This document shows positions 13,177 to 54,243 of a stretch of DNA of 64,000 bases, one piece after another. A program made the position numbers and the translations under genes. Below the pieces are notes generated by a model that did not search any database, had not been told where the DNA came from, and saw nothing but the letters and a program-made list of their open reading frames with translations. Origin of the DNA: Biscogniauxia marginata (taxonomy: Eukaryota; Ascomycota; Sordariomycetes; Xylariales; Xylariaceae). The stretch lies in assembly GCA_022695795.1 (NCBI GenBank), contig MU404078.1, forward strand, positions 248,001 through 312,000. The letters run 5' to 3'. Position 1 is the first letter of the stretch; the number at the start of each line of letters is the position of its first letter.

Positions 13177-13277
13177 CGTTCCATTCCCCTGGACCAGTGC
13201 ATTGAAAGTACTATCAGCATCATTGCCACAGTCTTAAGAGGACCAATATTGATTAAACGAGAAATTAAATTATAAGA

Positions 13278-24300: not shown

Positions 24301-25860
24301 AAGGAACTTATCGATATTTATTTAAATTATAAGAACCTTACACGATTTATAATAATATAAATACTTAATTAAAAACATAAGCATTAAATAATTTTCTTGT
24401 TTAAATTTAATTTTAAAATCTATTATATTAAAGGAAAAAAAAACATTTAAATAAATCTTTTTAATAAAAAAGGAGACTATAAATTAAAAATTAATAAAAG
24501 AAATATTTAGATGTTTAAACAACAAAATAATAAATTAGTTATATTAATTTACATGCGAATTAACATAAGAAATTAAAAATAACGTTTCAAGGAAAATTAT
24601 AATTAAAAAGAAAAGTAATTATAGTTTTAATAAGGATTTAATAATAAACCTCTTTTATATAAAGAAAAGGTTTATATATTAAAACGAGTATAAAACGAAT
24701 TTATTAAAGAATTTCACGAACATCCTTTACACGGTTACCAAGGAATATTTAAAACGATAAAACGACTTTAAAAAGAATTCGACTTTCTAGAAATATAACA
24801 AATAATTAAAAGAATTATAAAGAATTATAACGTTTATAATAAGGTTAAAGTATCACGATATAAACCATATAAATTATTATAGTTAATTTAGATACTTAAT
24901 AAAGCGTGACATATAATTACATGGGATTTCGTAGTAAAACTTCTTAAGTTAAAAGATTTTATTATAAGAATACCTTATAATAACATATAAGTAATTATTA
25001 ATAAACTTACGAAATATGTTTATTTCTTATTATTTAACGAATTAAGTATAGTAAAATAACTAGCTTTTAATTTCCTAAAAAAATACGTTAATAAATATAA
25101 ATTACCGGAATGTATTATTTTTAAATAAACGAACAAATAAAAAAACTAAACTAAATAATAAAATAATATTTAAAATAATATTAACTAAAAAATGAATAAC
25201 TAAATAAAATTATTATTAATAGCCTAAATAATATATAACACTTCGATTAACGAAGACATAAAAATATTACTATATAAAGCAATATACGGTTAAAAAGCAA
25301 AAATCTAAAAATAACTAATTAAACTTACGAAAACACTAAAAATCGAGATAAAAACCCCGAGAGTAGAAGTACTATCTAAAAAAGTCCGGGTAGTATAACG
25401 ACGGCTAAAAAAAGAATTATAATTTATTTAAAACAAAATAACAAAATATTATAATAAAAAAAGAATTAAAGGACTAATTCTTAAAAGAAAAAATATAGTT
25501 TATTTACTTCGTTAATAACAAGGCGTAATAACAAAAACGCCTTAAATTAAAATAAAACGACTTAATAAAAAACTTAAGTTTAAAAAATTAAAACTATATA
25601 AAATCGAGAAAGTTATTTCAAATGTTAATTATAAATTAAAACTACTAAAAAAAATTAAAATATATTTAGTTTTTTATATATCGTTATTAAAACTAGCACT
25701 AAAAAACGCCTTGTTAAAAAAATTAAAAAAAATTAAAAAAAATTAAATAAGTATAACGTAAAAAAAGTTTTAGACTTAAAAAGGATTAATAATTAATTAT
25801 AATATCTAGTTAAATAAAAAGGATATTTACTAAAGAAAAATACGTAAAAATTATTTAAGT
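21300..25860 (+). pseudogene. element A pol remnant
   Basis: Protease, RT, RNase H, integrase and chromodomain regions in Ty3 order. Recognisable pieces: FLGFINYVK in RT/RNase H, and integrase FHEHPLHGYQGIFKT with its zinc CxxC changed to YNVY. RT lacks the YxDD segment found in element F at 46165-46176. Broken by transition-type stops throughout. Confidence 0.8.
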
Positions 25861-26484
25861 ACTTAATAAATTTAAAAGACGTGCTTAATAAATTTCATCG
25901 ACGGAACTTAGATCGGCTAAAAAGGCTTAAAATTCGAGACCTTAGTCTAAGAAGGACAAATTAAGAGAGGAGACGGCCTCGGAAGCAACCCTAGCCTGCT
26001 CGGCTAAAGATTGTTGTTTAACCTAGAGACGTTTCTACTCCTCTTTTAAACGTTCCTGCTCCTCTAACTTATTTAGGTTTTAAAAACCTCGTTATAACAT
26101 TTTTAACCCTTTTTTACGAAAAAGGTTACGTTGCCGATGTAACTTAAAAATACACATAATAAATTCGTTTATTTCGGATTAAAGTTTAAAAAGCGCCGCC
26201 TCCGTTTAACGCTTTTAAAAAAGTAAATAATTCTTTTTAACATTTAACCGCTTAAAAAAATTTAAAGGAATTTTTATATTATTATAAAAACGATTACGAT
26301 AAACATATTTATTACATTTCTTTAATTCATTTTCGATAATAACGCATTTTAGTTTCCGATCGAAATAAAAAAAGCAAGATATAATATCGACGTATATATT
26401 TAACTTATAAATATGTTAAAAGAGTTTTTCGCGTTTAAGTTTCTAATTGTCACGACGATGTTTAGCCACTTAATTGTTAAACAT
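25855..26484 (-). pseudogene. element A antisense ORF (Cys-rich/coiled-coil protein), RIP-broken
   Basis: 210-codon frame on the strand opposite to pol, ATG at 26484, final TAA at 25855-25857. Internal stops are all TAA/TAG. N-terminal part has Cys around KLKCVI and KKCNKYV. Then comes a basic/coiled-coil stretch (FRKKGLKML; KLEEQERLKEE; SLAEQARVASEAV) and NLSFLD near the end. It ends against the chromodomain codons of pol. Counterparts occur in B, D, F and G. I recognise a resemblance to Cys-rich coiled-coil hypothetical proteins abundant in ascomycete genomes, but know no function. Confidence 0.75.
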
Positions 26485-26554
26485 AATAAAAATGGAAAAG
26501 AAAAAAAACTTATAAATTATTTTTAAGATAAAGATTCTAGAAAGAGAGAAGTAA

Positions 26555-27051
26555 TATTACGAATCCAGCTTGTTAAAGGGGTTTTTTACAAGGGTATTAA
26601 GATATAAACTATAAAGATATTAATAAGATAAAGGATTTTTATATAATATCACGTGACGTGTATTTATATAACAATATAAAATAAATTACTTTAAATAAAG
26701 TTATTTAAAGTTATTTAACATATAAAAAGGGAAATAAATCACTTTAAATAAAGTAATTTAAAGGTATCTAACATATTAAAATGGAAATCCTATATAAAGG
26801 GAAAACGGGTATAAAAAAGAAGGAATTTCCTTTGTTTCTAGTTATTTATTTTAATTTTTTAGCTATTAATCTAAAACTATAATCACTTTTTAACACTATA
26901 GTGAGAATACCTTAAAATCTCTTTAACGAACAAAAACATTATAAATCACTTAAACTAATCTTAATTCACTATTACCTTTAAATCAAGAAAACCTAGTACG
27001 TACTTACTTGTAAAGTCAGCTAACTAGAAATACACAGGGAGGTTCGTCACA
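26555..27051 (+). repeat. element A 3' LTR
   Basis: 497 bases beginning TATTACGAATCC (G-to-A at base 2) and ending GGTTCGTCACA. TCACGTGA at 26649-26656. Longer than the 5' LTR because a segment of U3 is duplicated here. A purine-rich tract precedes it. Confidence 0.92.
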
Positions 27052-30000
27052 GTTTAATATTATAAAGATTTAAACTTTACTAATTTGCCTTTTTATAAGT
27101 TTTATTAGTAGTAATAAGTATTCGTTTTTTTTGTTATTTTATTAAGGTGTCGGTAATTAATTACTTATCACTACATTAAATTTCTTTTTTTATTAACATG
27201 TTACTTTCCGTTTTTATTAATCTTTAATATTATAATTACTAGGTATCTTAATAAAGACTTTAATTTTTAAATATATTCTTTATTAAGATCCTTTTAAATT
27301 CCTTTTTATAATACCTTTTATTTTTCTTAATTTATAAGATATACTAAGAATAGTTTTAATTATTTTATTTTTTTAAAGTAAATTTAATAATTCCACTAAT
27401 TATATTTTAGTAATTTTTCTTTTCTTTTATTTTTAAATAATTTATAAAAACAAAGGTATTTATATAATACTCTTTTCGTTAAATCTTTAAGCTTAGTTAC
27501 TTAAATTATATAAACGATATATTTCGTTTTTATATTCGTTTTTTTGGTATTATTTACGATACTCATTTTATAACTTGTAATAGTTAACTCTTTTTAATTT
27601 TAATCTTAATAAAGCGTATTAATTTCGAAATTTATTTATAAATTACTTTTTTTAAGTTAATTTATTCTTAGGATTATATCGTGATTTAATATATATATAA
27701 TATTAAAAATGACTTACTTAAAATGTTTTTAAATAGTTATTAAGAAAAGAACTAATTTTTTTAACATTTTACCATTTTCGTAACTAGATATATATTTTTT
27801 AAAGTTCGGTAATTTATATAAATTTTATTTATATACTTATAATATATTATCTTTTTAAGCTACCTTGGTTAAAACATAACTTTTATTTACTTTTAAGTTT
27901 ATAAAGGCTTTATATTCCTTTTTATTATTAAGTCCCAATTAGACTTCGTATAAAGACTTATTATTTATGGCTTCTCGCTACTTTACTAGCGAGAGCCTTT
28001 ATCGTTTTTGGGTTTTTTATATCCCCTTTTTTTTAGGTTTTTTTAAGTCGTTACGGCCTTAATATCTTTTTATTCTTAGGCTTTTATAAAAACGTATTTC
28101 CAGTAATTATTATTTAAATAGTTTTTTTAATTACCTTTTAAGTAATAAGAAATAAAAGGTTTATCTTTTATATTTCACTTTATATATTAAAACTTTAATT
28201 CCTTTTCGAGGGCCTTTTTATAGCTTAAATCTATTTTTTTATTAATTTAAAGCCTTTTAAAGTTTTAAATTATCTTCGAATAAAGGGTATAATTCTCGGA
28301 TTTGCTTGTTAGGGGTAACTTAATATTTCCTTATAAATTTATATATATTTCTAAAAACTTTTTTTCTTTTTTAAAGTATATCTTAACGATTTGTTTATAG
28401 CTTAGTTTAATTATACGTATTTTTACTTATTATTTTATTAAATGCTTCTTTACAAAACCAAATAAACTAGTGTTATACTTAGCTCGTTTTTCGAGTTAAT
28501 ATGGAAAATATAATTCTTTTTTAATTTCGTCTTTTTCGAAACCCGTTTCGAGTAAATCGTATATCTCGCATAATATTAAGATATAATATATATAACCCTT
28601 AATAATCGCTTCGTTATTTTTTTCGGAACTTAAATGAAAATAATATACTTTAAAATATTATAATTATCGTAAGACATTATTATAAATATATTTATTTTCT
28701 TTCGTGTTATTATTTTCTAGTTTTTAAAGATAATAATCGGCTTTATTTTTAGAGCTTTAATATAAAAGTTTTAATATAACGATATATATTCTTTTTTTTA
28801 GTTATTTTACCATTTTTAGTTTTAGTTTAAGTTTTTCGTTTAATAACTTATTAAGTTAACTACCATTATTTAAGTTTTAATAAACATCGTAATTATTATT
28901 TATATAAAATTTCTAGTTTAAGTTATTATATTTATTTTTTTTCTTAGTGTATTTCGCATTTATCGTCGTTATAATAACTTTAATATAACCCATTATAGTT
29001 TAACTTAATTCCTAAGTCGTATTTTAGTTTATAAGTATCGTATTTATACGGTAATTCGTTTTCGTTATATTCTTATTTGGCTTATTTTAGCGTGAAATAC
29101 CTTAAATATAAGTAATTATACTTTAAATAATCTTTACGGTTAACTTAATAATATTTATAACTTTTTTTATAAAGACTTCCTCGTTCTTTTTTGCCTTAAT
29201 AATAGTAATAATAAATACTTAATTTACTTCTTTATTGTTTTTAAAATAAACCCTTATTTTAAAGGTTTTTTTCTCGAGTTAAGAAATCCTTTTTGTTTTT
29301 AGTTTTTGTTTTTTAAGATTTCGGTACTTGTTTTTATAATATTTTTTCTTTTTATAATTAAAACACTTAATAGTTATTTTATTTTATTTCTTTTACTCTT
29401 TTTAAGTAGCGTTAATTTTAATGGGGTTTAACTTAGTTTTAATGCCTTTCCTTATTTTGGCACCACTTTTATGATTTCCTTCTTTTTATTAATCGCCGTT
29501 TTTTCGTTATATCGTTTTTTTCTTTATATAGATTTATTTTATATAACTTATTTTTTATATGGTTTTTTAATTCTTAATAAAATAAGTAATATAGGTTTTT
29601 AATAAGTAATTACGATTAACTTGTGAGTTTCTTAAACTTAATAACGTAATTTAAGACCTTTTTATTTTGTCGTAGTTTATAAAGTCGAGTTTCGGCTTGT
29701 TATTTAAGAATTAAATTATTAAATATAAACCTAAGTTGTTTTTTAAACTCCTTATAATCCTTAAAAACCTTCTTTATGTCTTTTTAAACGTTTTATTTAT
29801 TATTTAAGTAATTTTTTAATATTAGTTAAAACTAGGTTAAAGCAGTTCCGACGAGAAATTAAAATATTATAAAAACCTTTTATTTTTTAATAATAATTAT
29901 TCCGTGATAAAACCGTAAATAAGTTCCGGCTTAAATTAAAAATCCTTTTAAATTACTCGACTTATTATATTTATTAAATATAATTAATTTAAAACCTTTT

Positions 30001-30424
30001 ATATTAGGGGTCGTTATATTGTTTTCGTCGTTTAAGTTATTAAGGTTATTATCGTTTAAAAGTAGCTTTAACTATTTATCTTTAAAAAGTAAAAGTTATT
30101 TTACTTATTTATTTTTAAGTGTTTTTCTCTCTCTTTTTTTTTTCTTTTTTAAATGATTCTTTTTACTAAGCTTTAAAGGTATCTTTTTAAGGCTTTTTTT
30201 TAGTTATAATTATAATTAACTCTTATATTAGTTCTTTTAAACCTTTTTATTATACCGTAAAAAAATTTAAAGCTTTTATTTAAAAGCTTATTAATTGTTG
30301 TTTTTTTATTTGTTTTTTTTCTTATTACTTTTTAGTTTTAAAGGGCATATTTATCTTAAGACGGTCTAACCGAGAATCCCTTTTCTTAAACCAATATTAA
30401 GCACTAATTAAAAAGTTATTAAAA

Positions 30425-30943
30425 TATAACGAACCTCTTTATATGTTCTTAGTTAATTAACTTCATAAGTAAATACGTATTAAATTTTCTTAATTTAAAG
30501 GTAATAATAAATTAAGATTAATTTAAAAGGTTTATAATGCTTTATTCGTTAAAGAGATTTTAAGGTATTTTTATTATAATATTAAAAAATAACTATAGTT
30601 TTAAATTAATAACTAAAAAACTAAAATAATTAATTAAACATATAAAAAACACCGTTCTTTTTATACTTATTCATCTTATCTTTTATTCCTTATAATTAGT
30701 ATATTAAATACCTTTAAATGAGTTTAATTTACACATATTTATTCTCCACTAAATATTATTAAATAAGTTTATTTACATATATCCATTCTTTATTAAATGT
30801 TGCTAAATAAGTTTATCTACATATATTTATATCACGTAATAATAAGTTACTTTCTTTTCCAAGATTTATATCCGGTATAGAAACAAAAACAATAAGAATA
30901 ATACCCTTATTATTTAATTACTTATCCTAGTTAGTTCGTAATA
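30425..30943 (-). repeat. element B 5' LTR
   Basis: 519 bases on the minus strand. Matches 15743-16653 apart from the C insertion. It holds a TCACGTAA variant of the U3 palindrome (about 30832). Confidence 0.9.
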
Positions 30944-31225
30944 ATAATTATATACTTATTTAATTAATTAACACGAACTAGCTTTAAAATAATATAAAAC
31001 GTTTTATAAATTATATTATTAAAAAACGAAATAAAATAAAATAAAATAATTCGATTTAAAAGTTATTTATTTAAATAAAAGTAAATATAAGTATTTATTT
31101 GTTTTATACGAAAATTATATTAATTTATAATTAAAATAAATTAAAAGTAAATTAATTGTTTTTATTATCGATTTTATTTATATATAAACGGTTTAAGTTT
31201 ATTTTAATTATATTTATAATAAGAA
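30944..31225. other. AT-rich spacer, no gene
   Basis: Between elements B and D; nothing recognisable. Confidence 0.6.
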
Positions 31226-31280
31226 TGTTACGATCTTATAAGGATTAAAACTCCAAAAGAGGAATACGAAGAACTAATTA

Positions 31281-31392
31281 AACATTTAAGATAAACACAT
31301 TTAAGATAAACACATTTAAGATAAACACATTTAAGATAAACACATTTAAGATAAACACATTTAAGATAAACACATTTAAGATAAACACATTT
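31281..31392. repeat. 15-bp tandem repeat (CACATTTAAGATAAA)
   Basis: Seven or more near-identical 15-base units, running into the gap. The 3' LTR of the same element has only about four to five degenerate units at 38972-39038, so the array has expanded here or the copy was assembled imperfectly. Confidence 0.9.
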
Positions 31393-31490
31393 NNNNNNNN
31401 NNNNNNNNNNNNNNNNNNNNNNNNNNNNNNNNNNNNNNNNNNNNNNNNNNNNNNNNNNNNNNNNNNNNNNNNNNNNNNNNNNNNNNNNNN
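31393..31490. other. assembly gap (98 N)
   Basis: Unresolved bases directly at the end of the tandem array, presumably because the repeat could not be assembled. Confidence 0.97.
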
Positions 31491-34400
31491 TTAAAAGATT
31501 TAACGGTATTTAACATATTAAAGCAAGAAATATAAAAAAGAATAAATAAGTATAAATAAATTTGAATTTCCTTTATATTTAGTTATTTATTTTAATTCTT
31601 TAATTATTAATTTAAAACTATAATTACTCCTTAATATTATAATAAAAATACTTTAAAATCTCTTTAATAAATAAAACATAATTAATTTTTAAATTAATTT
31701 TAATTTATTATTATTTATAAAATAAAAAAGACTTAATACGTATTTACTTGTAAAGTTAATTAACTAGAAACATATAAAGAGGTTCGTTATATTTTAATAG
31801 CTCTTTAATTAATACTTAACATTGATTTAAAAAAAAGGAACTCTCGATCGAACTGTCTTAAAATAAACATACCCCTTAAAACCAAAAAATAATAAAAAAA
31901 TAAACAAATAAAAAAATAACAATTAATAAGCCCTTAAACAAAAGCTTTAAATTCTTTTACAATATAATAAAAAGGTTTAAAAAAAACTAATATAAAAATT
32001 AATTATAATTATAATTAAAAAAAAGCCTTAAAAACACTTTTAAAGCTTAACAAGAAAAATCATTTAAAGAAGAAAAAAAGGAAAAAAAGAAACACCTAAA
32101 AAAGAAAATAAATAAATAAAATAACTAAAGCCACTTTTAAACGATAACGACTTTAACAGCTTAAACGACGAAAATAACATAACGACCCTTAATATAAAAA
32201 GTTTTAAACTAATTATATCTAGCAAATATAATAAGTCAAGTAATTTAAAAAGATTTTTAATTTAAGCCGGAACTTATTTACGGTTTTATTACGAAATAAT
32301 TACTATTAAAAAAATAAAAGGTTTTTACGGTATTTTAGCTCTTTATTAAAACTACTTTAACCTAGTTTTAATTAACATTAAAAAATCACTTAAATAATAA
32401 ATAAAACGCCTAAAAAGATATAAAAAAGGTTTTTAAAAATTATAAAAAATTTAAAAAACAACTTAAGTCTATATTTAATAACCTAATTCTTAAGTAATAA
32501 ACTAAAGCTCGACTTCATAAATTATAACAAAATAAAAAAACCTTAAACTACGCTATTAAGTTTAAAAAAACTTATAAACTAGTCGTAATTACTTATTAAA
32601 AGCTTATATTATTTATTTTATTAAAAACTAAAAAACTATATAAAAAATAAGTTATATAAAATAAATTTATATAAAAAAAGAAACTTAAAAAAGTTTAATA
32701 ATTACGTTATAATAGTAATTACTATCGATAACGAAAACTTTAAATAATACCTTAAAAAAACAATATAACGAAAAAACGGCGATTAATAAAAAGAAGAAAA
32801 TCACAAAAATAATACCGAAATAAGGAAAAGCACTAAAACTAAATTAAACCTTATTAAAATTAACGCTACTTAAAAAGAATAAAAAAATAAAACAAATCGA
32901 CTATTAAATATTTTAATTATAAGAAAAAAAACATTATAAAAACGAGTATTAAAATCCTAAAAAACAAAAACCAAAAATAAAAAAGATTTATTTTGAAAAC
33001 AATAAAAAGGTAAATTAAGTATTTATTATTATTATTATTAAAGTAAAAAAGGATAAAAAAGTCCTTATAAAAATATAATATCCGTTAAAGTTATAAAAAA
33101 AAACTTATAAACATTATTTAAGGTATTATCGCTCACTTATTACAATTTATAAAAGTTATAAATATTATTAAGTTAACTTTTAAGACTATTCGAAGCACGA
33201 TTACATATACTTAAGGTATTTCACGCTAAAATAAGTTAAGTAAAAATATAACGAAAGCGAACTACTATATAAATATAATGTTTATTAAAACCTAAATAAT
33301 GCTAATTAATTTAATAAGTTATTAAATAAAAAACTTAAACTAAAAAAGGTAAAATAACTAAAAAACGAAACATTTTAACCTAACAAAAATAAAATAATAA
33401 AATCACAAAAAAAACATATATTATTACATTAAAGCTTTTATATTAACGACGCTTATTAAATATATAAAAGCTTTAAAAATAAAGCCGGTTATTATTCTTA
33501 AAAACCGGAAAATAATAACACAAAAAAGAATAAATATATTTATAATAACATTTCACGATAGCTATATTATTTTAAAGCATATTATTTTTATTTAAGTTCC
33601 GAAAAAAATAACGAAATAATTATTAAAAGTTATATATATTATACCTTAATATTATACGATATATATAATTTATTTAAAACGGGTTTTAAAAAAGACGAAA
33701 TTAAAAAAGAATTATAAAAATTATAAAAAGAATTACATTTTTTACGTTAACTCGAAAAACGAGTTAAATATAATATTAATTTATTCGGTTTTATAAAAAA
33801 GCATTTAATAAAATAATAAATAAAAATACGTACGACTAAACTAAACTATAAACGAATCGTTAAAATATATTTTTAAAAAAAGGGAAAGTTTCTAAAAATA
33901 TATATAAACTTATAAAGAAATATTAAGTTACTTTTAATAAGCAAATTCGAGAATTATACCTTTTATTCGAAAATAATTTAAAACCTTAAAAGTCTTTAAA
34001 TTAATAAAAAAAATAGATTTAAGCTATAAAAAAGCCCTCGAAAAAAATTTTAAATTTTAATATATAAGGTTTTATATAAAGAATAAACCTTTTATTCTTT
34101 ATTACGTAAAAAGTAATTAAAGAAATTATCGAAATAATAATTATTAAAAACACGTTTTTATAAAAGCCTAAGAATAAAATAAAATCAAGGCCGTAACGAC
34201 TTAAAAAAACAAAAAAAAGGAAAAAACGTAAAAAACTAAAAAACGATAAAAGTTCTCGCTAGTAAAGTAACGAAAAGCTATAAATAACAAGTCTTTATAT
34301 AAAATCCAATTAAGACTCGATAATATCATTATAACTAAAGTTAAGTATAATAAAAGGGAATATAAAGCCCTTATAAACTTAAAAATAAATAAAAATTATG

Positions 34401-35404
34401 TCTTAATTAAAGTAACTTAAAAAAACAATATATTATAAATATATAAATAAAATTTATATAAATTATAGAATTTTAAAGAATATATATTTAATTATAAGAA
34501 TAATAAGGTGTTAAAAGAAATAATTCCTTTTTTAATAACTATTTAAAAACATCTTAAGTAAGTCATTTTTAACATTATATATATATTAAATCACGATATA
34601 ATTCTAAAATAAATTAACTTAAAAAAAGCAATTTATAAATAAATTTCGAAATAAACATATTTTATTAAAATTAAGATTAAAAAGAGTTAATTATTATAAG
34701 TTATAAAATAAGTATCGTAAATAATACTAGAAAAACGGATGTAAAAACGAAACATATCGTTTATATAATTTAAGTAACTAAGCCTAAAAATCTAACGAAA
34801 AAAGTATTACACGAGTACCTTCGTTTTTATAAATTGTTTAAAAAAAAGAATTATTAAAATATAATTAATAAAATCACTAAATCTATTTTAAGGAAGAAAA
34901 ATAATTAAAATTATTTTTAATATATCTTATAAATCAAGAAAAATAAAAAGCATTATAAAAAGGAATTTAAAAAGACCTTAATAAAGAATATATTCGAGAA
35001 TTAAAATCCTTATTAAGATACTTAGTAGTTATAATACTAAAAGTTAATAAAAACGGAAAGTAACATATTAATAAAAAAAGAAATTTAGTATAATAACAAG
35101 TAATTAATTATTAATACTTTAATAAAGTAATAAAAAACGAATATTTATTACTATTAATAAAACTTATAAAAAAGCAAATTAATAAAGCTTAAATCTTTAT
35201 AACACTAAACCTTCGCGATAATTATTATATAATTAAAATGGCTAAAAAACACGAATAATACACCGCTTTTTAAACGATATATAAACATTATAAATATAAA
35301 GTTATGTTATTTAAACTTATTAACACACCCGTTATATTTTAATATATAATTATAATAATTCTTTATAAGTTTTTAAATAAATTTGTATTTATTTATTTAA
35401 AAAA

Positions 35405-35495
35405 CGAGAAAAAACATAAAAAACATAAAAAACATAAAAAACATATAAAACATATAAAACATATAAAACATATAAAACATATAAAACATATAAAA
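35405..35495. repeat. A-rich tandem repeats inside element D RT
   Basis: Successive AAAAAACAT-type units followed by about six ATATAAAAC-type units. Other elements have single-copy sequence here (compare 46200-46230 in F), so it is a local expansion. Confidence 0.85.
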
Positions 35496-38185: not shown

Positions 38186-38728
38186 TTAATCACTTAAAAA
38201 ACCTAATAAATAAACTTATAAACTTTCATTATTAAAACCCGGACCGGCCAGAAAAATCTAAAAATTCAATTAAAACTAATTAAAAAAGAAGAAAACCTCC
38301 GAAATAAATACGTTTTACCCGAATTTAAATTAATATAATAATTCTTTTATATGTTATTATTCTTTATTAAGACGTTACTATTTGGTTTTTACATGTTTTT
38401 ACTCTTTTAATTTATTTAAACTTTAAAGCCCTCTTTTTATTATTTCTAAACCCTTTTTACGAAGAAATTCCTCTTGTTTCTTTATTCGAATAAAGCGACT
38501 AAATAACTCTTATAATTACTCTTCTACTTTACGACGTTTAGCTGCTAGACGTTTACGCTCTTCATCGACTTTTCGGAGGGTCGATATTAGAGCTCCGGTA
38601 CCGTTATAAGAACGTTATCTTAAAATATAATTTACATAACAAAATATTAAATTTATTATAAAACATTTAAATTTATTAATAAAAATGTATAAAAAACAAG
38701 GTATTACCTTATATCTAAAACGAAACAT
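38186..38728 (-). pseudogene. element D antisense ORF (coiled-coil protein), RIP-broken
   Basis: 181-codon frame opposite to pol, ATG at 38728, last TAA at 38186-38188, internal stops TAA/TAG only. Cys residues occur in the first third (VIPCF, NKFKCF, IFCYVN). A strong coiled coil follows (LRKVDEERKRLAAKRRKVEE; KKQEEFLRKKGLEIIKRGL) and LAGPGF near the end. The most divergent copy, yet collinear with those of A, F and G. Confidence 0.75.
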
Positions 38729-38870
38729 ATAAAACTAAAAATCCTTACGAGCTTAATATTAATTTAAACGACGACGAGATTTAAAGACTTAAAAAAAATA
38801 ATAATAATTAATAAGAAAAAAATTTACTAAAAAAAAATCTTTAAAGATAAAAATTAAAAAAAAAATTTAA

Positions 38871-42089: not shown

Positions 42090-42561
42090 TGTTACGACCT
42101 AACCATGGGAAGGGGACATTCAACATGGGTATTAGGGGCACGGACCAGGGATGCCCGCCTTGTGGGCATGAATAGGGAATACGATCCTACGTCACGTGAT
42201 GTGGATCCGACTTGATGAGTTAGATCCAAAAGAAGCCATACATAAGGGGATCCGAGTGGATAAGTCGGATCCAAAGGTATCTAACATACCAGATAGAGAA
42301 TATGTATAAGAAAGAATTTATATAAAAAGAATGGGATTTCTTATGTATTTAGTTATTCTTTCTAGTTTTTTAACTATTAATTTAAGATTATAATCACTTT
42401 TTAATACTATAATGAGAGTACCTTAAAACCTCTTTAACGAATATAACATTGTGAATTAATTAAATCAATTTTAACCTATTATTACTTTTAAATCAAGAAA
42501 ACCTAGTATGTATTTACTTATAAAGTTAGCTAACTAGGAACACATAAAAAGGTTCGTCACA
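42090..42561 (+). repeat. element F 5' LTR
   Basis: 472 bases, TGTTACGACCTAACCATGGG..GGTTCGTCACA. TCACGTGA at 42192-42199; TATA-like TATATAAAAAG near 42321. U3 is less mutated than the internal region. Confidence 0.95.
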
Positions 42562-42637
42562 TTTTAATAGCTCTTTAATTAATGCTAGACATTAGTTTAA
42601 AAGAAGGAACCTTTAGTTAAATAGCCCTAAGACAAGC

Positions 42638-43800
42638 ATGCCCCTTAAAACTAAAGAGTAACAAGAAAAAAAACAAGTAAGAAAATAATAGTTAATAAGC
42701 TCTTAAACGAAAGTTTTAGGTTTTTTTACGGTATTATAAAAAGGTTTAAAAGAACCAACATAAAAGTCCATTATAATTATAGTTAAAAAAGAGTCATAAA
42801 AGGACACCTTAAAGGCTTAGCAAAAAAATCATTTAAGAAAGAAAAAAAGGAGGAGAAAAAAACACTTAAAAAAGAAAACAAACAAATAAAACAACTTTTA
42901 CCTCTTAGAGATAAGTAATTACCCTTAAATAATAGCGACCTTAATAACTTAAACGACAAAAATAATATGATAACCCTCGATATAAAGGGTTTTAAACTAA
43001 TTACACCTAGTAAATATAATAGGTTAAACGATTTAAAAGGATTTTTAATTTAAGCCGGAACCTATTTATAGTTTTATTATAAAACGATTACTATTAAGAA
43101 ATAAAAGGTTTTCACGGTATCCTAGCTCCTCGTCGGAACCGCCTTAACCTAGTTTTAACCAGTATTAAAAAATCATCTAGAAAACGGATTAAACGCCCAA
43201 GAAAACACGAAGAAAGTCTTCAAGAATTATAAGGAGTTTAAAAAACAACTTAGGTTTATATTTAGTAATTTAATCCTTAAATAATAAACTAAAGCTCGAT
43301 TTTATAAACTATAATAAAATAAAAAGGCTTTAAATTACGCTATTAAGTTCAAGAAACTCGCAAGCCAATTATAACTACTTATTAAAAGCTTATATTACTT
43401 GTTTTATTAAGGATTAAAAAACTATATAAAGAATAAGCTATATAAAATAAACCTATATAAAAAAAGGAACCTAGGAAAGTTTAATAACTACGTTATAATG
43501 GTAATCACCATCGATAACGAAAACTTTAAACGGTACCTTAAAAAAAAAACGGTATAATGAAGGAATAGCGATTAATTAAAGGGAGGAAATCACAAAAGCG
43601 GTGCCGAAACCAGAAAAGGCACTAAAACCAAGTTAAACCCCATTAAAATCAACGTTATTTAAAAGGAACAAAAGAAACGAGATAAATTAACCATTAAATG
43701 TTTTAATTACAGAAAAAAAAGACATTATAAAAACGAGTGCCGAAGTCTTAAGAAACAAGAACTAAAAACAAGAGGGATTTCTTAACCCGAGAAAAGAGCC
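42638..43800 (+). pseudogene. element F gag remnant
   Basis: Starts MPLKTKE, collinear with Gag of A. The zinc knuckle at 43699-43740 reads CFNYRKKRHYKNEC: the second Cys (TGC to TAC) and the Gly (GGA to AGA) of CX2CX4HX4C are each changed by one G-to-A transition. Confidence 0.82.
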
Positions 43801-46800
43801 GCTAAAGCAAGGATTTAATTCGAAAACAACAAAGAAATAAACTAAGTATTTATTATTAACACTATTAAGGTAGAGAAAATTGAGGAGGCCCTTATAAAGG
43901 GAGTTTATAAATCTTATTAAGTTAACCGTAAGAACTATTTAGAGGATAACCACTCGTATTTAGGATATTTTACACCAAAACAAGCCAAATAAGGATATGA
44001 CGAAAGCGAATTACCATATAAATGCAATAATTACAAGCTAAAATACGACTTAAGAATTAAGTTAAACCATAATAATCTACATTAAAGCCATTATAATAAC
44101 GATAAATGTAAAACCTATTAAAAAAGAAGCTAGTATAATAGTTTAAACTAGAGGTTTTATATAAATAATAATTATAATATTCATTAAAGCTTAAGGGAAT
44201 ATATATCGTTACATTAAAGCTTTTATATTAACGACGTTTATTAAATATATAAAAGTTTTAAGAATAAAGCCGGTTATTATCTTTAAGAAATAGAAAATAA
44301 TAATACGAAAAAAAATGAGTGTATTTGCGACAACGTCTCATGATAGCCACATTTTTTTTAAACATGTTATCTTTACCCCGGTTTCAAAAAGAGCAACGAA
44401 GCAATTACTAAAGGTTATATATATTACACCTCGATACTATACGACGTATATGACTTGCTTGAAGCAGGTTTCGAAGAAAACGAGATTAAGGAAAAATTAT
44501 AGGAATTATAAAAGGGATTGTATTTTCTATAGTGGCTCGAAGAACGAACTAAATACGACATTAATTTATTCGGCTTTATAGGAAAACACTTAACAAAGTA
44601 ATAAGCAAAAACACGTACAACTAAACAAAGCTATAAATAAATCATTAAAACATATTTCAAAAAAAAAGGAAAACTTCTAGAAATTAATATAAACCTGAGG
44701 AGAAATATCGAGATACTTTTAACAAGCAAATTTAAAAATTATTCTTTTTATTCGAAGATAATTTAGAACTTTAAAAAATTCCGAGTTAATAGAATAAACT
44801 TAAGTTATAAAAAGGCTCTCGAAAAAAAATTAAAGTTTTAATATATAAAGTTTTATATAAAGGATAAACCTTTTACCCCTTATTACATAAAAGGTAATTA
44901 AAGAGATTATTTAAGTAATGATTACTAGAAACACGCTTCTATGAAAACTCAAGAGTAGAAAGATATCCGGGTTATAACAACTAAAAGAAAACCAAAAAAG
45001 AAAGGATATAGAAGACCAAAAAACGGCAAAGGCTCTCGCTAGTAAGGCAGCGAGAAGCTATAAATAGCAAGTTCTTGTATGAAGTCTAGTCGAGACTTGA
45101 TAATACCATTAAAACCAAAATCAAATATAATAAAAAGGAATATAAAGCCTTTATAGACTTAAGAATAAATAAAAGTTATATCTCAACTAAAATAACTTAA
45201 AAAGACAAGATACTATAAATATATAAATAAAGTTTATATTAACTATAAAACTTCGAAGGATATATATTTAGTTACGAGAATGGTAAAGTGTTAAGAGAGA
45301 TAGTACCTCTTTTAATAACCATTTAAGAACACCCTAAGTAAGTTATTTTTAATATTATATATATATTAAATCACGACATAATACTAAGGATAAATTGACT
45401 TAAAAAAAGTAATTCACGAATAAATTTCAAGATAAACACGCTTTATTAAGATTAAAAATAAGAGGAGTTAACCACCACGGGTTACGAGATAAGTACCGTA
45501 AGTAACTTTAGAGAAACAAATATAAAAACAAAACATATCGCTTATATAATTCGAGTAACCAAGCTTGAAAATCTAACGAAGAGAATACCGCGCAAGTACC
45601 TCCATTTCCATAAATTATTTAAAAATAAAATAAAAAAAGAATTACTAAAACATAGCTAATAAAATCACTAAATCCACTTTAAAAAAGAAAAACAACTAAA
45701 ATTATTTTTAATATATTTTATAAATCAGGAAAAACAAAAGGCATTATAAAAAGGAATTTAAGAGGATTTAAATAAAGGATATATTTAAGAATTAAAATCC
45801 TCGTTAAGATACCCGGCAATTATAGTACTTAAAGTCGACAAAAACGGGAAATAACATATTAATGAAAAAGGAAACCTAGTATAGCGACGAGTAATTAATT
45901 ACTAACACCTTAATAAAATAACCAAGAAAAACGGATACTTGTTACTACTAATAAAACTCATAAAAGAATAAATTAATAAGGCTTAAATCTTTATAGTACT
46001 AAACCTTCGCGATAAATATTATATAAAATAACTAAGGGATATAAACAATATATAGATATTATAAATATAAAGTTATACCATTTAAACTTATTAACGTACT
46101 CGCTATATTTCAACATATAATTATGATAGTTCTCCGCAAGTTTCTGGATAAATTTGTATTTATTTATTTAGATGATATCTTAATTTACTTAGAAAACGAG
46201 AAAGAACATAAGGAATATATAAAGCAAGTATTGAAAGCCTTAGAAAAGGTAAACCTACTCGTTTATTTAATTAAAAGTAAATAACATATTAAAAAACTAA
46301 ATTATTTAGGGTTTATAATAAATCCAGGAGAAATCCGCATTTAAAAGGGAAAAATAGCAATAATTAAGGATTGGCTAGAACTTAAGAGTGTTATAAATAT
46401 ACACGTATTTCTTGGCTTTATTAACTATGTTAAATAACTTATTAAAGATTTCGGGCGTATCGCTAAACCATTAACGGAATTAATTACCCTAGCGAAAACA
46501 AGAAAGGCTTTTCATTTTACTAAAGAAGCTAGGTAGGCTTTTTAACAGCTAAAAGAAGTTATAACTAGTGAGGTTATATATAAACTTCCAAACGAAAATA
46601 AAAAGAAACGACTAAGGATAAACGCCTTAAATTTCGCTATTAAAGTAATCTTAAAACAATTAAAAGATAATAAGAAATAGTACTTAATCGCGTAGTTATT
46701 TAAAGCACTATATAGTGCTAAACTAAATTATTAGATTTATAACAAGGAACTATTAATAGTTATTAAAGTACTAAAAAAATAGGAATTATGGCTTAATAGA

Positions 46801-48490
46801 ACTAAAGAACTTATTAATATCTATTTAAACCATAAAAACCTTATATAATTCATAATAACACAAACGCTTAATTAAAGACATAAGCGTTAAATGATTTTCT
46901 TATTTAAATTCAATTTTAAAATCCAGTATATTAAGGGAAAGGAAAATATCTAAATAGATCTTTTTAGTAGAAAGGGAAATTATGAATTAAAAATCAATAA
47001 AAGAAATGTTTAAATGTTTAAACAACAAAATAACGGATTAGTTGTATTAGTTTACATGCAAATTAATATAAGAAACTAGAAATAACGTTTTAAAGAAAAT
47101 TACAATTAAAAGGAAAAACAATTACAGTCTTAACAAGAATCTAATGACGAATTTCTCTCGTATAAGACGAATTCGTTAAAGAATTTCACGAATATCCTCT
47201 ATATAGCCACCAAAGGATTTTTAAAATAATGAAACGACTTTAAAAGGAATTCGACTTTTTAGGAATATGATAAATAGTTAAAAGAATTATAAAGAATTAT
47301 AATATCTATAATAAGGCTAAAGCATTATAATATAAACCATACGGATTATTATAACCAACTTAAATATTTAATAAAGCGTGGCATATAATTATATGAGATT
47401 TCGTAATAAAACTCTTAAAGTTAAAAGACCCTACTATAAGAGTACCTTATAACAGTATATAGGTAATTATTAATAGACTCACGAAATATGCCTACTTTTT
47501 ATTATTTAACGAATTAAGTATAGTAAAACAGTTAGCCTTTAGTTTTTTAAGAAAGTATATTAGTAAATATAGGCTATTTAAACGCGTTGTTTTAAATAAA
47601 GACAAGTTATTTACGTTAAAATTTTGGATTAATTTAATGAAACAAATGGAAATTAAGCAAAAATTGTTTATAACGTATTACCTTTAAACCGACGAACAAA
47701 TAAAAAAACTAAACTAAATAATAAAACAATATTTACGAAGCTATGTTAACTAAGAAATGAATAATTAGATAAAATTACTATTAATAACCTAAATAACATA
47801 TAATACTTCGATTAATAAAGACATGAAGATGTCACTACACGAGGCAGTATACAGGTAAAAGGCGGAAGCTTAAAAACAACCGATCGAACTTACAAAAGCA
47901 CTAAGAGTTAAAATAGAAGCCCCGAGAGTAAAAGTACTATCTAAAAAGATTTAAGCAGTATAATAACGACTACAAAAAGAATTATAATTCATTTAAAATA
48001 GAATAATAAAGTACTATAATAAAAAAAGAATTAAAGAACTAATTCTTAAGAGAAAAAACATGGTTTATTTACTTCGTTAATAACAAAACGTAACATTAAA
48101 AACACTTTAAATCAAAATAAAGCGACCTAGCGAAAAACTTAAATTTAAGAAATTAAGACTATATAAAATCGAGGAGGTTATTTTAAAAGTTAACTATAAA
48201 TTAGCGTTATTAAAAAGATTTAAAATATATCTTGTATTTTATATCTCGCTTTTAAAACTAGCACTAAATAACGTTATATTAAAAAACCAACTAGAATTTA
48301 AAGAAAACCCTAATGAGTATAAAGTAAAAAAGATATTAGATTTAAAATAAATTAAAAATTAATTATAATATTTTATTAAATAGGAAGAATACCCACCCGA
48401 GGAAAACACTTAGGAACCTCTTAAACACCTAAAAAACCTGACGAAGAAACTTATAAACTTTCACCGACAAAACCCGGATCGGCCAGAAAG
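43800..48490 (+). pseudogene. element F pol remnant (PR-RT-RH-IN-chromodomain)
   Basis: RT palm motif FVFIYLDDILIY at about 46156-46188; the connection region has FLGFINYVK. RNase H resembles LNY.IYNKELL near 46725. Integrase starts about 47165 with EFHEYPLYSHQRIF. The polyprotein ends in a chromodomain. A real gag-pol frame piece DLLEAGFEENEIKE can be read near 44450. Stops are mostly TAA/TAG from transitions. Confidence 0.85.
48363..48485 (+). pseudogene. chromodomain at the end of element F pol
   Basis: The frame reads YFIK-stop-EEYPPEENT-stop-EPLKHLKNL followed by KKLINFHRQNPDRPE. The two stops (TAG) fall exactly where chromodomains have the aromatic-cage Trp codons (YLVKW..Y..EENTWEPL), i.e. 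TGG to TAG by one G-to-A change each. A chromodomain fused to integrase defines chromoviruses and directs insertion to heterochromatin. Confidence 0.85.
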
Positions 48491-49083
48491 GCCTGAAATT
48501 CAAGGTCCTAATCCAGGAAGGACAGGTCGAAAAAGGGGACGACCTCGGAAGCAACTCTAGCCTGCTCGGCTAAAAATTATTGTTCGACCTAGAGACGCTT
48601 TTGTTCCTCTTCCAGACACTCTTACTTTTCCAGTTCATCTAGATTTTAAAGACTACGTTATAACATCTTTAAACCTTTTTCTTTTAATAACGCCTTTTAA
48701 AAGCGAATACGTTTTATCCGGGAAATAGATTTAGCCATTTCGGACTAGATTTGAGAAAGAACAAAGGTTATCTCAAACTATAAACGGAAAAGGGATTCTT
48801 CGGCCTGCTGTTTTTAGAGGGATAGTCGCTTTTTTTCATTATCTAGACGGTTAAAGGAATCTAGAGGGATTTTTGAACCATCATATTAAGCCTTTTAACA
48901 AACATATTTATTACATTTTCTTGACTCCCTAATAATTATAACACATTTTAGTTAATAATTAAAACAATACAAATAAAGCATAATATCGATATTAACACCA
49001 TAGTTTTTAATATGACGAGTAAGGGTGTTACGTTTCTTTTTTTAATTTATATAAAGGCGTTTAAAAACTCGATTACTAAACAT
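48421..49083 (-). pseudogene. element F antisense ORF (Cys-rich/coiled-coil protein), RIP-broken
   Basis: 221-codon frame, ATG at 49083, last TAA at 48421-48423, overlapping the chromodomain codons on the other strand. All internal stops are TAA/TAG. The N-terminal module holds Cys in LYCFNYQLKCV and RKCNKYVCQK, followed by KIPLDSFNRL. Then a long charged helix (LDNEKKRLSL; KALLKEKGLKML; LDELEK; ECLEEEQKRL; FLAEQARVASEVV) and DLSFLD near the end. Best preserved copy for the N-terminal half. A zinc-binding plus coiled-coil protein is the inference; no known function. Confidence 0.78.
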
Positions 49084-49156
49084 ATTAAAAGAGATAAATA
49101 AAAAGAAATACTTATAAATAATCTTTAAAATAAAGAATTTTAAAAAAAAGAAATAA

Positions 49157-49628
49157 TGTTACGACTTAACTATAAAAAAGGGATATTTAATATGGGTATT
49201 AAGGGCATAAACCAGGAATGCCCGCCTTGTAAGCATAAGTAAGGAATACGATTTTACGTCACGTAATATGGATCTGACTTAATAAGTTGAATCTAAAAAA
49301 AGCTATACACAAGGGGATTCGAGTGAATAAGTCGGATCTAAAGGTATTTAACATACCAGATAGAGAATATATATAAAAAAGAATTTATATAAAAAGGATG
49401 GGATTTCTCATGTATCTAGTTATTCTTTCTAGTTCCTTAGCTATTAATCTAAGACTATAGTCACTCTTTAATACTATAGTAAGAGTACCTTAAAACCTCT
49501 CTAACGAACATAACATTGTGAATTAATTAAACTAATCTTAACCCACTATTACCTTTAAATCAAGAAAACCTAGTACGTACTCACTTGTGAAGTCAGCTAA
49601 CTAGGAACACACAGGGAGGTTCGTTACA
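49157..49628 (+). repeat. element F 3' LTR
   Basis: 472 bases, TGTTACGACTTAAC..GGTTCGTTACA. Differs from the 5' LTR mainly by C/T and G/A changes; the U3 palindrome has decayed to TCACGTAA. Confidence 0.95.
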
Positions 49629-49633
49629 ATTTA

Positions 49634-50690
49634 GTTTATCCATAAAATTATTATTCGTTAAAAACTAATTAATTTCGTTTAATTAAAAATTATTTTTTAT
49701 TAAATTCATAATAATATATATAAAAAAATAAATTTAAGTTTAATCGACGTTATTATTAATTTATTAACTTAATTTAAAATATTATTTTTTAGCTTCGTTA
49801 TAATCGTTTTATTAATTAATTAAAAAATAAAAAAATTATATAACTTTATAAAGCTTTTATATTTATATTAACATTTTAAAAGGTATTTGTCGTTATTAAT
49901 TTTAATAAGATTTATAAGTAATATAATATATATTACTATTATATAACCTCGTTAAAAACTCGTTTAAAAAACAATAATAACGGTTTACAATATATTATAT
50001 AATATTTCTCTTGAAATTTAATATTAATATAATTAATAATTATATACACGATTTTATACGTAATTAAATTAATATAATTATAATCGCGTTAAAATATATT
50101 TAAACGCGCTCGAGATTTTAAATTATAATATTTAATATTAATTGTTTAATAATATATACTTTATTATTTTAAATTAAACGACGTATTAAACGTTTATATA
50201 TTAAAAAGCCTATTATTTCGATTAAAATTATTTAATTAATTTTTTATCGTTATTTATTTTTATTTAATTATTATTATAAATCATTATATTATTTCTCGTA
50301 TTATTCTCGTTATTATTTAATAATGTAATAATTACTTATTATATCGTATTAATTTTTAGCGAAAAATTAAAAAAAAACTTAATAAAAAGTAATAATTAAT
50401 TATTTTCTTTATAATATTTTTTATTATATCGTTATATATTAAATTATTTATTAAGTTTATAAATATAAAAGTAAAAAACGATATATATAAATAAATAAGT
50501 AAAAATATATTTAAAATATTATTATATATAATTTTTTCGGTTTTAAATGAAATTATACGTATTATAATCATATTAATAAATTTTAAATCGCTTTAATAAA
50601 ATGGATTTTTATTATAATATTAATAAACATATAAAAACTAAATAATTAATTTTTTATTTAATAAAGTTTATTTAATTTAAATAATATTTA
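49634..50690. other. AT-rich DNA, no gene
   Basis: A/T-saturated flank between element F and the Fot1-like transposon. The short minus-strand open frame at 50356-50571 is low-complexity Ile/Leu/Tyr/Asn and not credible. Confidence 0.6.
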
Positions 50691-52517
50691 TATATAACGT
50701 GCTTTACCAGTACCTTGCGTATATTAGTACTTTGCGCACTTTCCCCTACCTTCTTATATTAGAATTAGGATTTAATAACCACAACGTATAAAATTAACCT
50801 AAACTACTTAAAATTTAATAAACTTAATATAATTATAGTATCTTAATAAGTACGCGTATTATGACTAGTCTCCTCGTAAGTACTATATCGTCGCTTAAAA
50901 GGCTACCCCTTATTTTGTTTACCCCCTTTAAAGCGTTTGTCGTGTCGAGCTTGCTTTTTTGCCTTTTTTTAAGCTAAAACGTCTTACGTATTCTTTATAA
51001 TAAGTGCTTTCTCTTAATAAACTTAAGTCTTTTTAGCTTTGCGGCGTTTATTAAGTGCCTTATTTGTTGTTTGAAGTGTACGTACCTTAGTTAATAAAAG
51101 CGTTATTTTATAAGTTAATATTTTAATGTTTTTAGCTAACGTCACTACCGTCTTAAAAATAAGGGTTAAAGAGCTTTCTTAATAGCGTGCAATGCGACTC
51201 TTTATTAAGGTTAATTGTGAAAACGTATTAGTCGCATTATAAGGGGTTTAAAAGACTTAAGGGTTAGTATTAATCGAGGGGGATATATTAAGATTCGGAG
51301 TTTATAACCTCATATTAAGCTTTAAAATTATAGCTTGTGGGTCGAAAGGCATTAAGCTAGCTCCGCGGAATCTAGCTTAGCCATTTTAAGCTGTTATAAA
51401 AGCTAAATAAACTGCTTTAAAAGCGAGGAAAAACTCGACCTTTATAATATAGTTAATATAAGCCTTAATAAAAGTCTTAATTTGTTAATTATATACTCGT
51501 TTTAAGACATTAAAACACTTAATATTTAATAGCTAGGTTAAATAAAAAGAATAAAGAAGTAAATAAAGAGTAATAATATTATATACTTTATAATACTCTT
51601 AAAATTACGCCGATTCGTGACTCTTATGCCTATTAAAAATAAATATTTGATATAAACCTTTAACTCGAGTAAAAATATACTTATTAAAGTGTTTAAACCA
51701 TTTTAAGCTTGTTTTATTATTTATTTAGTTATTACTAATTAGTTTAATTACTTAGTTATATAAAAAGTCGCTTTTAATATATTAACTTATAAAATAATTC
51801 TTTTTTTAAACCATTAAAAACGAAAGGATATTTTAATTTTTATTATTAATATAAGTAATTACTATCGTTTATTCTTAATTACTTAGTTAAATTACTTTAT
51901 TTTTACTATATCGATTTACGCGAGTTATAATCATTACCGAAAAGATTATACTTATTATAAAGCTTATTTTGTCGAAATTATAAAAATCGGAGTTTTAAAT
52001 ATTATATTTCGCCTATATATTCTTAACTAGTCGGAATCACGCGTTAATTAGCTTTAAATTTTCGTATAAGGCTCTTTAAAAGTTATAAACGCGATTAAAA
52101 CGCGTCTTTAACCCTAGTTATCGTTATATAAATCGATATACTTAATTCTTCCCGATGTGTAATGCCCCTCGAGATTTAAGTAGAAGATTTATTATATCTT
52201 TAATACTAATAAGCCGAGGCGTAAAACCTCGGGAATCTAGATTAAGTATATATTAAATAATCGTATCCTTTTTTACTTTATTTAGTTTAAGGTTTAGAGG
52301 TAAATATTTGTTAAGAGAAGTATAACTATTTATTTTAAGTCGAAACGTAAATTCGGGAACTTTATAGATTTTCATAGTAGATCGACGATTTAGCTTTTTA
52401 AATAAACGAATAGCCTCGATAATTAAGATAATTCGTGTCAAAGTTCATAGGGTATAAAATAAAAGAAAGTGCACAAGGTACTAATATACGTAAGGTACTA
52501 ATAAAGCACGTTATATA
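50691..52517 (-). mobile_element. Fot1/pogo-like DNA transposon, RIP-degenerate
   Basis: About 1.83 kb bounded by inverted repeats of about 48 bases: TATATAACGTGCTTTA at the left and its complement ending at 52517. Each contains a doubled AGTACCTTG/ATTAGTAC word, and TA flanks fit TA target duplication. Size and ends match Fot1/Pot2-type elements. A transposase N-terminus lies inside on the minus strand. Confidence 0.82.
52253..52441 (-). pseudogene. Fot1/pogo transposase N-terminal fragment
   Basis: 62 residues starting MTRIILIIEAIRLFKKLNRR and containing KIYKVPEFTF and KLNKVKKDTII. This follows the helix-turn-helix (psq/CENP-B-like) start of pogo-family transposases, where the pattern is IEAI..GK..S...AA..Y.VP.TTL..R followed by KL...EE..I. 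The rest of the transposase toward 50700 is broken by stops. Confidence 0.7.
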
Positions 52518-52986
52518 ATATATATATTAAATAAAATAATATATTTTTATTAAATTTTTTATATTATTACTTTTTTAATAATTTATTTTCGCGTTTAATA
52601 CGCGACTTTTATACGAAATAAAATAAATACTTTATATAAATAATAACCGGAATTATTAAAAAAGCGAAATAAGTTTCGTTTCGACTTTTAATATAATAAT
52701 AACAAGTTATTTTTAAATAAAAAAGAAAATCTCGTTTTATAATTTATTTAAGTAAAATTATATAACGTATTATATAAGCGAGTAAACAAAACAAGCTTAT
52801 AAACGAAATGGTTTTTTATATAAAATGGACTTTTTCGAAAATTTATAATGTTATAGTTATAATGTTAATGTTTGGCTTCTTTACACTAAAATCTAAGTAA
52901 TTTCACTAATTAATCGCTTAGTATTAAGGGCCGCCCCGCTTATTTTGAAGTCCCTCCCCACCTTTTTTAAGGTACATGTTTATATG
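52518..52986. other. AT-rich spacer with foldback arm and GC-richer strip
   Basis: A lone left arm of the 40438 family at about 52760-52860. Bases about 52920-52986 are much less AT-rich (GGCCGCCCCGC) and are continuous with 60569-60660 once element G is removed, so they are pieces of one older sequence. Confidence 0.55.
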
Positions 52987-52991
52987 TGGCG

Positions 52992-53475
52992 TGTGACGAA
53001 CCTCCTTGTGTGTTCCTAGTCAGCTGACTTCACAGGTGAGTACGTACTAGGTTTTCTTAATTTAAAGGTAATAATAGGTTAAGATTGGTTTAAATAATTC
53101 ATAATGGTTATTCGTTAAAGAGGTTTCAAGGTACTCTCATTATAGTATCAAAGAATAACTATAGTCTTAAATTAATAACTAAAGAACTAGAAAGAATAAC
53201 TAAATATATAAGGAGATTTTAATTTATTTATATTTTTAAAGACAAATAAAGAACACTTATTTTTTCTTTAATTCTCTATGGATTTTTAGGGAGAGTAACA
53301 AAGAATCCCACTTCTCTTTAATTCTCTGTGGATTCTCAGGGAGAGTCATAAAGAATCCCACTTCTTTTTGATTCTCTATGGATTCTCAAGGAGAGTCACA
53401 AAGAATCCCATTTTAGGTCACGGGACCCTTAAGGTCACGTAACTTTTTCTTATTTTATCTTTATTAGTCGTAATA
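52992..53475 (-). repeat. element G 3' LTR with three 50-bp units
   Basis: 484 bases. Contains three 50-base minisatellite units (53271-53410). Confidence 0.94.
53271..53410. repeat. 50-bp minisatellite in U3, three copies
   Basis: Units start at 53271, 53321 and 53371 with ATTCTCTRTGGATT. Each unit contains an inverted repeat GATTCTCTGTG..CACAGAGAATC (RIP-altered in places), so each could form a stem. Confidence 0.9.
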
Positions 53476-53550
53476 CTATTTCTCCCCTTTTTTTGTTTTT
53501 GTCCTTAAAATAATCGGGTAAGTTTTTTCTTTTTTATCTCATTATTTGTT

Positions 53551-54243
53551 ATGCCTCCTAGAAAAGTAATTAAATCTTTTATACGTACAAATAAGAAATC
53601 CTCCTCTAAATATCGCAAGAAACTAGTTTACGCGATTTCTTAATTTGGTTTTAAAGTTATACCCTATTCTTAGTACTTTAATAAAGGCTTGTTTTATAAG
53701 ATATTAAAGAGTCGTAATAAGTGTTAAAATTATAGTACTTTAAACATGTTATCTTGCGACGAAAACCTTATCTCGTTATCTTTTCTTAAAAACCTTCGTA
53801 TTAAGAAGTTATAAGTTAATCGTGAAAAACGTACTACTAAATAATCGTTTTTAAACCTTTAGCGTCGTTATTAAGAAAAGGCTCGTCAAGAATTTAAATG
53901 TCGATAAGCCGAGGCTAGCGAGGCCCTAAATCGTTTAATTCGTTTAAATTAATAGCAAGACTTTCTTTAAGAAAAGGGTATACGGTTTATTTAAAAAGGT
54001 TTTTAGAACTTAAATAAAATGGAAAAGCAGGAATGTATTAAGGCAAAACAAAGACGCCTTAATAAAGAGCAATAACGCACGGAGAAATCGCTACGTTAAT
54101 TTGAATCTAAGCAAGACGTGCTTATTTCGGGGGTTTTCCCCTCCTTTAATTAGTCCTAACTAGATTCTCAGGCTTTCCTGGTCGATCCGGATTCTAGCGG
54201 TGAAAATTCACGAGTTTATCCGCTAGATTTTTCAGGTATTTAA
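53551..54243 (+). pseudogene. element G antisense ORF (Cys-rich/coiled-coil protein), RIP-broken
   Basis: 231-codon frame opposite to pol, ATG at 53551, final TAA at 54241-54243. About 15 internal stops, all TAA or TAG. N-terminus MPPRKVIKSFIRTNKKSSSK. A Cys segment (SRNKC, MLSCDE) is followed by a long coiled coil (RQEFKCR; AEASEALNRLIRLN; EKGIRFI; LNKMEKQECIKAKQRRLNKE) and AFLVDPDSSGE at the end. Collinear with the ORFs of A, B, D and F. Confidence 0.78.

Follow-up and report, generated by a model that had tools for sequence, protein, structure and literature searches.

A 64,000-nucleotide stretch of the Biscogniauxia marginata genome (contig MU404078.1, positions 248,001 to 312,000; hereafter the window, whose numbering is used for features within it) contains chromoviruses, which are Ty3/gypsy long terminal repeat (LTR) retrotransposons with a chromodomain. 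In five of these copies, designated A, B, D, F and G, an antisense open reading frame (aORF) occupies the interval between pol and the 3' LTR. This antisense frame was open and protein-constrained before repeat-induced point mutation (RIP) broke most of the copies, and it is practically certain to represent a real gene. It is conserved as a protein in most copies, and in both F and an open copy found elsewhere in the genome (L071), it is antisense to gag-pol and located between pol and the 3' LTR. There are strong indications that the encoded protein has a fold resembling the Zn2Cys6 zinc clusters of fungal transcription factors.

The antisense frames had been described in an earlier note made from the sequence of the window alone, and all five were recovered: on the minus strand in F (48421..49083), A (25855..26484) and D (38186..38799), and on the plus strand in G (53551..54243) and B (16721..17350, refined from about 16700-17350, with ATA in place of the start codon). 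All are RIP-broken. With the terminal stop included, the frames contain 14 (A), 16 (D), 16 (F), 18 (G) and 19 (B) stops, and, as the note had observed, none of these is a TGA; the 15 interior stops of F are all TAA or TAG, and its start and terminal stop codons line up with the L071 ones. This absence of TGA is weak evidence, as a neighboring antisense frame also lacks TGA in A, F and G; across 47 rows of the alignment described below, the TGA share in the three antisense frames is 0.011, 0.027 and 0.128. Similarly, a shared-stop test, which scores codons that read as stops in every copy of a subfamily, failed to distinguish the frames because RIP is near saturation. Recurring words were also confirmed, with KCNKYV present in A, B and F and LAEQARVASE in A and F, as was the overlap of the F frame with the chromodomain: the frame ends at 48421, within the Chromo match at approximately 48318-48461. 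Some of the initial description requires qualification. The start-to-stop lengths are indeed exact multiples of three, but this is uninformative, since the ATG and the stop were picked in one frame. The D frame is present, but the ATG at 38728 with which it was thought to begin is internal; the aligned 5' end lies at approximately 38799, and the resulting frame is 614 nt long, which is not a multiple of three. Finally, the attribution of the frame to every chromovirus copy holds for the five window copies in which the pol-to-3' LTR interval survives, and is limited to those five.

L071 comprises the first 1600 bases of contig C118 and has a GC content of 41-54%. In this GC-normal relative, the antisense frame is open from 128 to 862, with an ATG at 170 that aligns with the ATG of F and a stop at 860 that aligns with the F stop, giving an intact aORF of 230 codons. 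The opposite strand carries an ORF (678-914) for the chromodomain and the end of pol, and the two genes overlap by 185 bases; the L071 pol is itself broken by a stop just upstream of this ORF. In F, the corresponding tail-to-tail overlap of pol (plus strand) and aORF (minus strand) was placed by reference to the L071 pol stop and spans 48421..48593. A comparison of L071 with window copy G, which belongs to the same subfamily, reveals 229 transitions and no transversions, and 223 of the 229 transitions are C>T or G>A (CpA, 44/66; TpG, 63/85). In 2000 first-order Markov sequences of the same length as L071, no open run of 244 codons was observed in any frame.

A codon-position analysis addresses constraint on the antisense strand directly. 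Rows were recoded as purine or pyrimidine so that only transversions count, because RIP makes transitions only. The region analyzed is 1.3 kb long; its 59 rows, representing 58 distinct copies, sort into ten groups, and three G-type rows were then added for a total of 62 rows (61 distinct). Four rows shorter than 1000 nt (L034, L036, L037 and L067) and duplicates of F and A (L009 and L039) were dropped before counting, while L066, whose sequence is that of window copy B, was kept. In the pairs printed, transversion distances are 0-0.02 within groups and 0.08-0.17 between them, with group P nearer to A and merging at 0.04-0.06. Among the six groups that lie close together (F, A, B, K, M and P, which supply 54 of the 62 rows), the columns that vary at antisense codon positions 1, 2 and 3 number 44, 38 and 87 of 217 per position when the whole frame is taken (chi-square p=3e-6), and 44, 30 and 76 of 159-160 in the part of the aORF outside pol (p=1.4e-5). 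The upstream flank, which is mostly LTR, exhibits no such bias (22, 21 and 25 of 64 each; p=0.83), and the pol-only control has counts of 7, 19 and 3 of 139-140, with the peak at the third position of pol. Where pol and the aORF overlap, the counts are 0, 8 and 11 of 57-58: position 1, which is common to both frames, is variable in 0 of 57 columns, and the third position of each frame varies, as expected for two coding strands. When all ten groups are included, the whole-frame counts are 105, 80 and 134 of 210 (p=0.001).

Most gaps keep the same reading frame. When nine representatives (D not among them) were compared pair by pair, 129 of the 158 gaps had a length divisible by three, as did 28 of 36 net length differences, with all eight exceptions involving L030 of group M; of the 62 aligned rows, 47 are themselves a multiple of three in length. 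The proposal in the earlier note that an extra, convergently oriented gene was once open and has been eroded by RIP is supported by L071 itself, by its comparison with G and by the codon-position counts. The outcomes named in that note as contrary to it did not occur: this GC-normal relative retains an open antisense frame, and the codon-position pattern reveals constraint on the antisense strand.

Other copies in the 45.3-Mb assembly (229 contigs) extend this picture. L069 is a GC-rich patch within which a small element-like piece retains the N-terminal half of the antisense gene in open form, with all six of the cysteines discussed below preserved. A protein search of the genome with this L069 piece listed 135 matches, of which three are stop-free, including one in a 244-codon open frame, that of L071; another stop-free match, at C31, is short. 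The L069 element (L069:1916-3493; contig C2, approximately 903.4-905.0 kb) is a short GC-rich derivative with LTR-like ends that are 82% identical, a sense ORF taken for the start of gag and no pol; among 40 scored places, the next best is 84% identical over part of its length. In L070:3148-3720, the antisense gene is strongly diverged (28-34% identity to public homologues) and the adjoining pol has approximately 81% DNA identity to F and G, a contrast which may reflect either an antisense gene that evolves faster than pol or one that has been swapped between elements. Among 95 listed aORF matches that reach approximately residue 205, 88 have a pol match on the opposite strand and none has one on the same strand, while the remaining seven have no pol match among the matches listed; these 95 were hand-picked from an incomplete list, and the aORF and pol queries share DNA, so this strand count is not independent.

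The aORF family also has undamaged homologues, which were compared as proteins. An alignment of 12 read-through copies, with X at stops, led to two public proteins, and a second alignment led to 42 public homologues, including the first two; a single-frame search with F had detected none. When the copies were compared as a profile with 12 full-length homologues, the match had E=8e-24 and a probability of 99.6%. One source is named, Pseudogymnoascus sp. VKM F-3775 (V491_00047), and the homologue annotated in Pseudogymnoascus is P0038. Searches of viral contigs with query A4 or a pol piece, and of genome contigs with A4, returned nothing.

Zn2Cys6 domains (PF00172) have the spacing C-x2-C-x6-C-x(5-12)-C-x2-C-x(6-8)-C. 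In the 62-row alignment, exactly six of 210 codon columns are at least 80% cysteine or tyrosine with three or more cysteines; these six reach 93-100% and are spaced as in Zn2Cys6 clusters. All six cysteines are present in each of 12 full-length homologues chosen from the 42, and the exceptions to the pattern are a tyrosine at site 3 in L071 and P0004 and an arginine at site 1 in P0018. In F, the Zn2Cys6-like cluster is formed by codons 37, 40, 47, 57, 60 and 67 (48883..48975, minus strand); the corresponding regions are 26284..26376 (minus) in A, 53665..53757 (plus) in G, 38606..38698 (minus, by alignment) in D and 16829..16921 (plus) in B. PF00172 scores are 14.7 bits for P0003 and 14.5 bits for the L069 piece, below the gathering score of 21, and L071 has no PF00172 match in a Pfam search; 24 of the 42 homologues match PF00172 at E values up to 1, with a best value of 1e-3. 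A comparison of the modeled N-terminal region with known structures listed 14 PDB entries, each of them a Zn2Cys6 domain, at low Z scores of 2.1-4.1. A sequence search of solved structures found nothing relevant, and a viral fold library gave no match at E<1. The protein had previously been called possibly zinc-binding, and the six-cysteine pattern, the conserved columns and the model comparison now point to a probable zinc module, in which zinc binding itself is predicted.

As modeled, the antisense protein (approximately 209-230 residues) would begin with a helix followed by a Zn2Cys6-like binuclear zinc cluster, and continue through a long helix to a short tail. The description of it as a cysteine-rich coiled-coil protein was less successful. 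L071 contains only seven cysteines in 230 residues, so that the first term is overstated, and although a long helix is predicted, a heptad test for coiled coils gave p<0.05 in only one of six sequences. Three other Pfam matches were set aside as likely consequences of helix composition: FtsL (four of 12 damaged rows, best E 7.3e-5), zf-C4H2 (two of 12 damaged rows, 0.035) and DUF4055 (11 of 42 homologues, best 0.002).

The antisense gene brtn of Boty-like retrotransposons was reportedly presented by Zhao et al. 2011 (Virology 417:248). Additional antisense genes are on record for LTR retrotransposons of plants and for a fungal element, their functions being given as unknown, and Boty is listed among the elements with antisense ORFs between pol and the 3' LTR (PMC7264820). 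In the cited passages, brtn is given as an additional antisense gene in fungal Boty (PMC7264820, PMC8365987), is mentioned within a Boty-like element (PMC4227169) and is noted as absent from the last B05.10 annotation (PMC8365987), while a Monilinia transcript is said to resemble truncated Pol and BRTN (PMC5987419). This type of antisense gene is thus already known at this place in a fungus. The statement in the earlier note that no described function was known to its author is fair, but an additional antisense gene at the same place was in print. Boty resembles the present elements in being a fungal gag-pol element with a chromodomain and an extra antisense gene; the two are set side by side by description only, and no zinc cluster is attributed to BRTN in the relevant passages of PMC7264820, PMC8365987 and PMC4227169. 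Nor was the assignment of a zinc cluster to such an antisense gene found among the open-access papers listed, at the level of titles and the openings of abstracts, and both this assignment and the evidence for constraint may be new. Other known antisense ORFs include those of plant Grande, RIRE2 and Retand (TRP28, PF04195), the last from what is described as a non-chromovirus lineage. Pfam searches with L071 and the L069 piece, at E values up to 10, listed neither TRP28 nor a bZIP domain.

In F and L071, the aORF ATG lies 73 and 75 nt, respectively, from the edge of the 3' LTR, so the start of antisense transcription would have to fall within the leader, within the 3' LTR or farther out. The L071 leader is pyrimidine-rich and is taken to be the complement of the presumed polypurine tract, and the antisense promoter itself probably lies in the 3' LTR. 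The aORF is a third gene of these chromoviruses, antisense to gag-pol and lying between the chromodomain and the 3' LTR, where it overlaps the end of pol by approximately 175-185 bases; it would be transcribed from the 3' LTR in opposition to gag-pol. Its product could act as a small DNA-binding regulator that binds the LTR or nearby DNA and tunes the sense transcription of its own element, in the style of HBZ from HTLV-1. HBZ, one of the retroviral antisense proteins, is the product of an antisense gene expressed from a 3' LTR and is transcription factor-like, but it is a bZIP protein rather than a zinc cluster protein, it belongs to a retrovirus, and its action is reported (PMC10186651) whereas that of the aORF protein is proposed. 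The fungal GAL4-type factors share with the aORF protein the six-cysteine spacing and a predicted cluster-linker-helix layout; they differ in that the aORF scores given above fall below the Pfam cut-off, the aORF is borne by a retrotransposon, and its product has no room for a large regulatory domain. That a Zn2Cys6-like protein transcribed antisense from the 3' LTR regulates the LTR of its own element has about an even chance of being correct. The broader reading, in which ascomycete chromoviruses encode a miniature GAL4-type transcription factor from a backward-reading 3' LTR promoter, as a fungal counterpart of HBZ with a different DNA-binding fold, is held more tentatively and falls somewhat short of even.

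Several other roles were considered. The protein could be a DNA-binding targeting or replication factor that works with the chromodomain integrase to tether the pre-integration complex to host DNA or to aid nuclear entry. The zinc-cluster-like model, the proximity of the gene to the chromodomain and the report that plant antisense ORF proteins can be nuclear (PMC7264820) are compatible with this, but such a factor would not be made together with gag-pol and would need its own antisense promoter, and this role is considered unlikely. A counter-silencing protein, directed against heterochromatin, RNA silencing or RIP-linked methylation, would suit elements that inhabit a RIP-active genome, and the rapid change in the aORF outside pol relative to the pol-only region is what a conflict gene would exhibit. 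However, such change could also reflect weak constraint, no link to any silencing factor was found, and most copies are heavily RIPed regardless, which leaves this role rather improbable.

Capture of a host zinc-cluster gene, kept as cargo acting on host genes, is less probable again. The genome is rich in Zn2Cys6 genes (at least 117 matches, compared with none in 14 control genomes), and a homologue is annotated in Pseudogymnoascus, but no parent gene was recognized: 132 of the 135 listed own-genome matches to the L069 piece contain stops, their location in elements being unchecked. Moreover, approximately ten groups of copies carry the gene, so any capture was not recent. It is also quite improbable that the antisense RNA matters in itself, through double-stranded RNA control of copy number, with the protein incidental; such control is discussed for plant elements (PMC7264820), but codon-position constraint, in-frame gaps and conserved cysteines need a selected protein. 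A chance frame in AT-rich, RIP-degraded DNA, to which the poor separation of frames by missing TGA and by shared stops might seem to point, is rejected as having a negligible probability given the open copy L071, its comparison with G, the codon-position counts, the Markov simulation (0/2000) and the match to the homologue profile.

The surroundings of these elements are as follows. The first 15 kb of the window have a GC content of 40-53% and contain host-type ORFs; beyond 15 kb, the GC content drops to 13-31% and the sequence consists of Ty3/gypsy elements nested in each other. ORFs at 2990-14688, several of them split across frames, were named by eye from their translations as cupin-like, short-chain dehydrogenase, P450 and FAD-oxidase, and this region looks like a metabolic cluster adjoining the repeat nest. 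Element F is a chromovirus by definition, with a Ty3/gypsy pol and a C-terminal chromodomain; its Pfam matches on the plus strand are, in order, gag, RVT_1, RT_RNaseH, Integrase_H2C2, SH3_Tf2-1 and Chromo (PF00385, approximately 48318..48461, E 1e-5), of which RVT_1, RT_RNaseH and Chromo are above the cut-off and gag, H2C2 and SH3 below it. The F LTRs are located at 42090..42561 and 49157..49628 (plus strand); the 5' LTR begins TGTTACGA and ends CACA, and the inner edge of the 3' LTR is the one 73 nt upstream of the aORF ATG. LTR pair identity is 91% over 373 bases in G (52992-53364 and 60135-60507) and lower over the aligned parts of F (81%) and A (75%).

The perfect palindrome TCACGTGA occurs six times in the window (1896, 19843, 26649, 37228, 42192 and 60528) compared with 0.1 expected occurrences. 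Five of the six sites, including that at 42192 in the F 5' LTR, are inside or close to LTRs, and the palindrome is present at 25 of 91 loci, many of which have no LTR. It is a candidate LTR regulatory site and resembles a bHLH site.

Counting transversions alone makes it possible to recognize genes in DNA destroyed by RIP without restoring the sequence. If the zinc-cluster DNA-binding fold is correct, it would provide the antisense gene with a direct and testable function. If the proposed mode of expression and regulation is also correct, a single pair of LTRs would drive both the replication genes and the switch that controls them, and retroviruses and fungal retrotransposons would each have independently evolved an antisense transcription factor expressed from the 3' LTR.
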